Below the pieces are notes generated by a model. It did no database searches and was not told the origin of the DNA. It saw only the letters and a program-made list of their open reading frames with translations. The translations under genes and the position numbers were made by a program. A stretch of 64,000 bases of DNA from assembly GCA_003209165.1 (NCBI GenBank), contig QCSL01000006.1, forward strand, positions 1-64,000, in the 5' to 3' direction. The DNA is from Synechococcus sp. AG-670-B23. GTDB lineage: Bacteria > Cyanobacteriota > Cyanobacteriia > PCC-6307 > Cyanobiaceae. Positions 16,996 through 18,913 of this stretch are shown here, piece by piece (the first letter of the stretch is position 1; the number at the start of each line of letters is the position of its first letter).

Positions 16996-17568
16996 ATGTC
17001 CACCAGTGGAAAACTCACCTTGATCACTGGCCCAAGCGGTGTCGGTAAGGGAACGTTGGTGAACAAGCTGCTGAAGCGCCATCCCAAGATCTGGCTATCG
17101 GTGTCGGCCACCACCCGTTCTCCGCGCCAGGGGGAGCAAGAGGGCATTCAATATTTTTTTCACTCCCGTGATCGTTTTGATGCCCTTGTGGCAAGTGGTG
17201 GATTGTTGGAGTGGGCGGAATTCGCGGGGAATTGCTACGGCACGCCTCGTAAGCCCGTCGAAGAGCGCTTGGCGGAAGGGCGACCTGTGCTCCTCGAGAT
17301 TGAGTTAGAAGGTGCTCGTCAAGTGCGCCGCAGTTTTCCTGAAGGGTTTCAGATTTTTCTGGCCCCGCCCAGTTTTGAGGAATTGGAGCGCCGGATTCGT
17401 GGCCGTGGAACAGATTCTGAGGAAGCCATACAACGTCGTCTTTTGCGAGCACAGGATGAACTCAAGGCCCAGGCCGAATTTGATGCTGTCGTTGTCAACG
17501 ACAACCTTGATTCTGCACTGCAACAGTTTGAGCGCTACATGGGCATAATTTCTAGGGACTTTAATTGA
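16996..17568 (+). CDS. gmk: Guanylate kinase
   Basis: A 190-residue enzyme phosphorylating GMP to GDP with ATP. The P-loop GPSGVGKGT (residues 13-21), the GMP-binding [11 protein letters not shown] and the lid segment are all present, and the length fits. In marine picocyanobacteria gmk is commonly followed by psaJ-psaF-tsaD; here a putative carbonic anhydrase gene on the opposite strand separates them. Confidence 0.97.
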
Positions 17569-17577
17569 GAGGGTGAC

Positions 17578-18174
17578 TCAGCGTGCATCAACCGGTGCAG
17601 ATGAGTGATGAAGAACAATGCGCAGTTTGCCGGGTGTTGGCTGCCAAAAAGTCCAGGTTTTCTCGACCATGCCCCTATACCCAGAGGAGTCTGTCATCGT
17701 GACTGTGCCCATGGAGTTGGCCGTATTTCCAAGCAACTGAATCGTGTCATTTGCAATAGTGCACATCTGCCAATGTCTGTAGGTCGCGAAACCTTGTTTG
17801 GGCCCAAACTGCCTTATGTCTGGATCAGTCCCGACAAAATAGGCCAAAGCTCCTTCGCGGCTCGGTCGGAAGGTTGATTCTCCTACGGCATAGGTTGGCT
17901 TGAATGCCACAGGGCCGTATTGGTAGCCATAGGCAGCGTCAATAATGGCTGATGCTTCGGCCTTTGCTGCCTCGTATCCACCCTGTTGGTATGCAGCGCT
18001 GATTGTTATAAGTGCATTGCACCAGCCCCTTTGAGCTGCTTTGACTTCTTCAATAGTGATCTGGGTGTCAAACAACTGAACCCCTGCATTGGCTGCAGGG
18101 GATTGAGCGGCTGTACTGCCAAGAACAACGGCAGAGATGGTGCTACAAGCTCCAATCCACGAAGAGAACTTCAT
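17578..18174 (-). CDS. Putative exported iota-class carbonic anhydrase (COG4337-like)
   Basis: A 198-residue protein started at ATG 18174. An N-terminal signal peptide ends at an Ala-x-Ala site (AANA-GV, about residues 28-30), so the product is probably periplasmic. The mature part shows the ordered motifs I associate with the COG4337/iota-carbonic-anhydrase family: an opening Val-x-Ala-Ala-Gln-x2-Trp helix, AAYGYQYGPVAFKPT, FRPSREGALAYFVG, GFATYRHW, and a terminal LRIVLHHSSAPV. The HHSS motif near the C-terminus forms part of the active site in that family. It would interconvert CO2 and bicarbonate outside the plasma membrane. It sits between gmk and psaJ and breaks a usually tight cluster. 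Called from memory of motifs, without a search. Confidence 0.7.
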   Translation of the reverse strand: MKFSSWIGACSTISAVVLGSTAAQSPAANAGVQLFDTQITIEEVKAAQRGWCNALITISAAYQQGGYEAAKAEASAIIDAAYGYQYGPVAFKPTYAVGESTFRPSREGALAYFVGTDPDIRQFGPKQGFATYRHWQMCTIANDTIQLLGNTANSMGTVTMTDSSGYRGMVEKTWTFWQPTPGKLRIVLHHSSAPVDAR

Positions 18175-18227
18175 TTTCAATTCACAGCAACTAACAAGAG
18201 ATAGCGATATTCATGTTTGATGGCAAT

Positions 18228-18270
18228 AAAAAAAAAGGGGGTGAACTCATGAGCTCTCCCCCTTTTTTTG
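18228..18270 (-). terminator. Terminator downstream of psaJ
   Basis: An A-run, GGGGGTGAACTC, a short loop, GAGCTCTCCCCC and a T-run form an imperfect hairpin with homopolymer flanks on both sides. On the minus strand it ends the psaF-psaJ transcript 18-60 bases after the psaJ stop. The symmetric A and T runs mean it could work in both directions. Confidence 0.8.
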
Positions 18271-18287
18271 GTGTTGACCTAAAAAGA

Positions 18288-18404
18288 TCACATCGGGTGG
18301 AACAGGAGATCTGGGAAGAAGCGGTTCCACTCGATCAGGATTCCTGCGGTGGCTGTGAACCAGATAGCTGCAACCACTGGAGCTGCGGTCAGAAACTTGT
18401 TCAT
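18288..18404 (-). CDS. psaJ: Photosystem I reaction centre subunit IX (PsaJ)
   Basis: A 38-residue single-helix protein, too short for routine ORF lists. It reads [20 protein letters not shown], then a segment with the conserved Ile-Glu-x-Asn-Arg-Phe-Phe-Pro-Asp ending at Pro-Met. These features identify PsaJ, which binds chlorophyll and stabilises PsaF in the thylakoid membrane. It lies 32 bases after psaF on the same strand, as in other cyanobacteria. Confidence 0.96.
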
Positions 18405-18436: not shown

Positions 18437-18913
18437 TCAGCGCGGTGAAACCGTCACTTTGCTGTCGTCTTCGAGCAGCTTGCCGCTGGTGAATTCACCG
18501 AAAGCAGCGAGAGGCCAGCTGGCGGCTGCCAGAAGGCTCTTGATGGCGATGCTGCGGTCGATGAAGATTTCGTAGTTGGAAGCATTTTTGCCGCGAGTTG
18601 CTTTCAGGTACTCACGACCCGCCCAACCGATGCAGCCTGTGACGTACAGGAACATGATCCCGGGATACACAAAATCACCGGCATGGCTCCAACGGCCATC
18701 GACGATCAGATGGGGCAGGCCATCCTCACCACAGGACGCCTGGCTATACATCTCGAAACGGGCTTTGGCCTGAGGCGTTGTGGCAGCGGCAGCACGCTGC
18801 TGGAAGCGGGCACTTTCTGAGCAGGGTGTGAGGCCAGCCACATCCGCCTTGGCGACGGGGGCGAAGCCGAACACCAGGAGTGCTGAAAGCACGACGGCGA
18901 AGAGACGACGCAT
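18437..18913 (-). CDS. psaF: Photosystem I subunit III (PsaF)
   Basis: A 158-residue precursor started at ATG 18913 ([16 protein letters not shown]...). The signal peptide ends at [11 protein letters not shown], and the mature lumenal domain holds the two family cysteines (TPCSES and [11 protein letters not shown]), followed by a hydrophobic hairpin and membrane helix and a C-terminal amphipathic region. PsaF lies on the lumenal side of PSI near the plastocyanin/cytochrome c6 docking site. Co-transcribed with psaJ; divergent from tsaD. Confidence 0.97.

Follow-up and report, generated by a model that had tools for sequence, protein, structure and literature searches.

Two carbonic anhydrases (CAs) of the COG4337 type, a metal-independent kind of iota-CA, have been characterised: all2909 of Anabaena sp. 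PCC 7120 (PDB 7c5v/7c5w) and Bn86287 of Bigelowiella (7c5x). These enzymes hydrate CO2; their dehydration activity is very low and esterase activity was not obvious, and all2909 is slow, at 16.7 WAU per mg (PMC8132391). Alanine mutants of all2909 at T106, Y124, H197 and S199 are inactive, and Lys180 is non-essential (PMC8132391). Prokaryotic COG4337 members are stated to consist of one domain and are predicted to be periplasmic (PMC8132391, Hirakawa et al. 2021); an advantage in metal-poor ocean water has been proposed for the family (PMC8132391). COG4337 genes were named in marine Synechococcus CC9605 and WH7805 in 2021 (PMC8132391), and the gene described here shares with them family, ecological setting and predicted periplasmic location. 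A sequence-only reading of this locus had held that marine picocyanobacteria are not generally credited with a CA outside the carboxysome; the published genes do not support this, nor does our detection of the family in 19 of 34 genomes of the genus (78 of 400 genomes at family level). The COG4875 iota-CAs, exemplified by LCIP63 of Thalassiosira and BteCA-iota of Burkholderia, have the HHSS motif and NTF2-like fold in common with the protein studied here, but form a separate superfamily, are described with metal and are only distantly similar to it.

The window, a 64,000-nucleotide stretch of contig QCSL01000006.1 of Synechococcus sp. AG-670-B23, carries an intact open reading frame at positions 17578–18174 of the minus strand, with an ATG start, 198 codons and the C-terminus ...VLHHSSAPVDAR. 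An in-frame TTG at 18180 is a possible alternative start that would add two residues. The protein matched the NCBIfam metal-independent CA model NF047901.1 with E 2.4e-51 and 174 bits, which falls short of the equivalog cut-off of 350 bits. Because a marine relative of the genus type has a similar score (177 bits, versus 346 bits for the Anabaena domain), we ascribe the low score to divergence of the marine members. Searches against the crystallised COG4337 enzymes gave E 1.8e-42 for 7c5v and E 1.7e-62 for 7c5x, values well outside what chance would give. When the AlphaFold model of the window protein (mean pLDDT 81.5, with low confidence over the N-terminal ~25 residues) was submitted to Foldseek, 7c5v was the top solved structure (E 3.7e-15, target TM 0.87, 50% identity). 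In this model the window protein is a cone-shaped alpha+beta barrel. It comprises a single iota-CA domain, fitting the ~160-residue one-domain prokaryotic form, and resembles all2909 in its single domain, signal-like N-terminus, NTF2-like barrel and T/Y/H/S site; the two are about 50% identical over the domain and belong to different clades.

The sequence-only reading had also pointed to ordered family motifs ending in HHSS and had named a conserved Thr/Tyr/His/Ser set to look for. Alignment with all2909 placed all four residues: T94 (codon 17893–17895) corresponds to T106, Y112 (17839–17841) to Y124, and H189 and S191, within the H189-H190-S191 portion of the HHSS motif (17602–17610), to H197 and S199, all codons being on the minus strand. 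T94, Y112, H189 and S191 are invariant across 26 aligned homologues. Together with the profile and structure matches, these residues uphold the proposed family identity, and by its sequence the window protein is a new addition to the COG4337 enzymes of the kind described in PMC8132391.

Other assignments within the NTF2-like fold fared poorly. Pfam returned PF08332 (CaMKII_AD) alone, below threshold (E 0.032, 14.8 bits), and the match to 3h51 reached only E 0.075, which disfavours a COG4875 identity. A best match to a SnoaL/DUF4440 protein without the active site, named in the sequence-only reading as contrary evidence, was looked for; no Pfam match to such families appeared up to E 1, and the corresponding fold hits were far weaker than 7c5v. 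The fold is nevertheless common to ketosteroid isomerase, CaMKII-association and SnoaL-like proteins, seen here as weak Foldseek hits and the CaMKII_AD match, and all2909 itself works slowly. An NTF2-like protein could have kept the COG4337 pocket to do something else, for instance to bind a small anion or carboxylate, and not to hydrate CO2 at a useful rate. We judge this quite improbable, given that the two characterised CAs are the best sequence and fold matches by a wide margin and that the catalytic residues are all invariant across the family. An esterase assay, suggested earlier, would be uninformative, because neither characterised COG4337 enzyme showed that activity (PMC8132391).

The N-terminus, MKFSSWIGACSTISAVVLGSTAAQSPAANA|G, looks like a Sec signal. 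Inspection and hydropathy predict a signal peptide of about residues 1–31 (18082–18174, minus strand), with a hydrophobic 11-mer (mean Kyte-Doolittle 1.89) and an AxA-like site for cleavage at ANA|G. The protein had previously been called exported outright; what these features support is likely export. Taken together, the data make it likely that the gene encodes a periplasm-exported, metal-independent COG4337 iota-CA with one NTF2-like domain, which arrived on an imported tract and seemingly replaces a decaying native copy. By analogy with characterised members, the most likely role of the window protein is metal-free hydration of CO2 in the periplasm. As in all2909, the hydroxyls of T94, Y112 and S191 and the side chain of H189 would deprotonate an active-site water, which would then attack CO2 to yield bicarbonate. 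With flux in this direction, extracellular or leaked CO2 would be held as HCO3- near the uptake systems, with no zinc spent.

The gene stands tail to tail with gmk (guanylate kinase, 16996–17568, plus strand) and is flanked on its other side by psaJ (18288–18404, minus strand) and psaF (18437–18913, minus strand). The gap between gmk and psaJ measures 725 bp in the window versus 55–151 bp across 29 further genomes from the genus. The site lacks the gene in 29 of the 30 other genus genomes in which the spacing was read; a single relative, G010, has a homologue there (70% identity). Likewise, in a DNA search of 400 family-level genomes, gmk and the gene were spanned together only in the window genome and G010 among the matches listed. 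The sequence-only reading had described the gene as an interruption of the gmk-psaJ cluster, to be doubted if all relatives carried it at this locus; the occupancy and spacing agree with an interruption, and the short gaps of the relatives, combined with the import tract described below, rule out an ancestral place in the cluster.

Between psaJ and the gene lies a strong terminator-like hairpin on the minus strand (18230–18269; -22.1 kcal/mol, z -4.8, none of 200 shuffles equally stable). A and T tracts flank it, one on each side, and the terminator is possibly bidirectional; a simple consensus scan did not include this hairpin in its list. Such a strong hairpin in this interval should limit read-through from psaFJ, which disfavours an operon with these genes. 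A promoter scan for the window gene gave nothing recognisable. Co-expression with psaF-psaJ, with the enzyme serving photosystem I or thylakoid CO2 handling, would suit a gene on the same strand and 113 bp downstream of psaJ. We consider it extremely improbable in view of the intervening terminator, the absence of the gene from this site in nearly all relatives and the fact that the import tract stops at psaJ. The photosystem I neighbours are a landing site only, and their adjacency, noted in the earlier reading, is purely positional.

Sliding identity and change-point analysis delimited a recombinant tract at 17139–18288 that covers the iota-CA gene, the terminator and the greater part of gmk. 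Within about 17139–18288 the window is 66–69% identical to five close relatives, and outside it 92–94%, with identical tract ends in all five pairwise comparisons. Over the same part of gmk those five relatives are 90–96% identical to each other. The tract has a GC content of about 0.51, versus 0.58 for the whole window. From the drop in identity it follows that gmk is a chimera of a native 5' end and an imported remainder. Judged on these sequence comparisons, homologous recombination is the most likely route by which the ~1.15-kb tract came in, between gmk and psaJ and from a G010-like donor lineage. Since the gmk reading frame is preserved over the junction, the window is unlikely to be a chimeric assembly. 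A phage origin found no support, with zero matches in 50,697 phage records and no confirmed relative among viral contigs. Between the window gene and its G010 counterpart, 117 of 197 changes fall at third codon positions, with dN 0.15 and dS saturated; the third-position bias and this dN indicate purifying selection on the window gene.

Many members of the genus possess a different iota-CA type, 42–50% identical to the window protein. In G002 this native-type gene comes directly downstream of yfiH, in a stretch over which G013-type relatives also align; the window gene, by contrast, is a member of the WH7803-type clade located between gmk and psaJ. The window genome retains its own native iota-CA downstream of yfiH, in synteny with G002, at the end of contig C4 (L032 3821–4206), where it is cut by the contig end. 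Its reading frame is broken by -2 and -1 frameshifts, and it is altered at the positions of P93, R103 and F113, which are invariant in the homologue alignment. The frameshifts could be assembly errors, since they are read at a contig end, but the substitutions at conserved residues argue against mere assembly error. As far as its sequence can tell, the native copy is probably a pseudogene. That an old iota-CA was lost and a new one acquired would point to retention of the function, the imported gene seeming to stand in for the decaying one. The window genome also encodes two beta-CA-like (Pro_CA) genes (G000:C30:11670-12083 and G000:C3:70470-70895) and CsoSCA. Alpha-CA and SbtA were not found in this genome, an absence that carries little weight at 87.7% completeness.

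The protein tree pairs the window protein with that of G010 as sisters (100/99); both fall in a 13-row clade (100/100) that also holds WH7803-type Synechococcus and four genes from Myxococcota, Thioglobus and TMED88 bins. The latter four (L095-L098), from metagenome-assembled genomes labelled Deltaproteobacteria/Myxococcota, Thioglobus and TMED88, are 57–62% identical to the window protein and nested in the cyanobacterial clade. The surroundings of the L095 gene do not look cyanobacterial, and no metal cluster was seen around any of the four. The WH7803 protein (L099) is 62% identical to the window protein and has the FATYRHW signature in common with it; its gene sits in a metal-acquisition cluster, whereas the window gene lies between gmk and psaJ.

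The genus also contains a second architecture. Eight genomes, several of them single-contig, encode proteins of ~390–440 residues with two iota-CA domains, each bearing FKPT, YF(V/I/M)G and HHSS motifs (L176 5105–6283, plus strand; also L020 and L022-L031). These proteins form one clade in the tree. Hydropathy revealed no clear signal peptide at their N-termini. A cytoplasmic form would be unexpected, as a cytosolic CA should short-circuit the CO2-concentrating mechanism. The two-domain forms depart from the published single-domain description of prokaryotic COG4337 proteins.

In nine relatives of the window clade (L005, L091, L092, L094, L099, that is WH7803, and L100-L103), the iota-CA gene adjoins a ZnuA/MntC-type ABC transporter. 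The cluster also holds genes for a DUF3721 protein, a cytochrome c, an ArsP_1 permease and TIGR03943, some fragments spanning only part of these genes. Neither this linkage nor a two-domain prokaryotic iota-CA was mentioned in the open-licence literature searched, which was mostly not in full text. When NCBIfam models were ranked, the adjoining transporter was closer to Mn/Fe models than to ZnuA; a plain ZnuABC name was therefore dropped in favour of the term Mn/Zn-type. In the longer stretches L186 and L187, a second transporter lies ~4–6 kb away, in L186 nearest the zinc models, and Zur-box-like sites scoring 12–14 of 14 occur near it (20 shuffles of L186 scored at most 12).

This context bears on a refinement of the explanation given above, in which starvation for metal (zinc) induces the enzyme, an external CA that spares metal as a metal-free stand-in for zinc CAs. 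The nine clusters and the Zur-box-like sites favour it, as does the Zur repression of the znuABC cluster of WH8102, synw0968-0973 (PMC9337993). However, the transporter that adjoins the iota-CA gene fits Mn/Fe models better than ZnuA, its possible counterpart in WH8102 is under neither zinc nor Zur control (PMC9337993), and no Zur box was found ahead of the clustered iota-CA genes. For the window gene the best upstream Zur score was 10 of 14, equalled by 46% of shuffles, so that Zur control of this gene was rejected for want of a site above chance. The window gene and the best-matching metal-transport cluster of its genome are, moreover, on different contigs. Since the gene has neither a metal context nor a Zur box above chance, we treat a role in metal starvation as hypothetical, and rate this refinement as possible, if rather doubtful.

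A broader proposal is that the metal-free CAs of picocyanobacteria are metal-sparing substitutes, with a periplasmic clade that derives from metal-acquisition islands, spreads by recombination and is able to take the place of a decayed older iota-CA, while sister genomes add a signal-less, apparently cytoplasmic two-domain form; in this general shape we think it unlikely to hold. Thanks to the linkage to metal clusters and to the two-domain proteins, metal sparing can be tested in cultured strains, WH7803 for example. External CA activity is relevant to the uptake of inorganic carbon by ocean Synechococcus, and a metal-free enzyme would decouple that uptake from scarce zinc.
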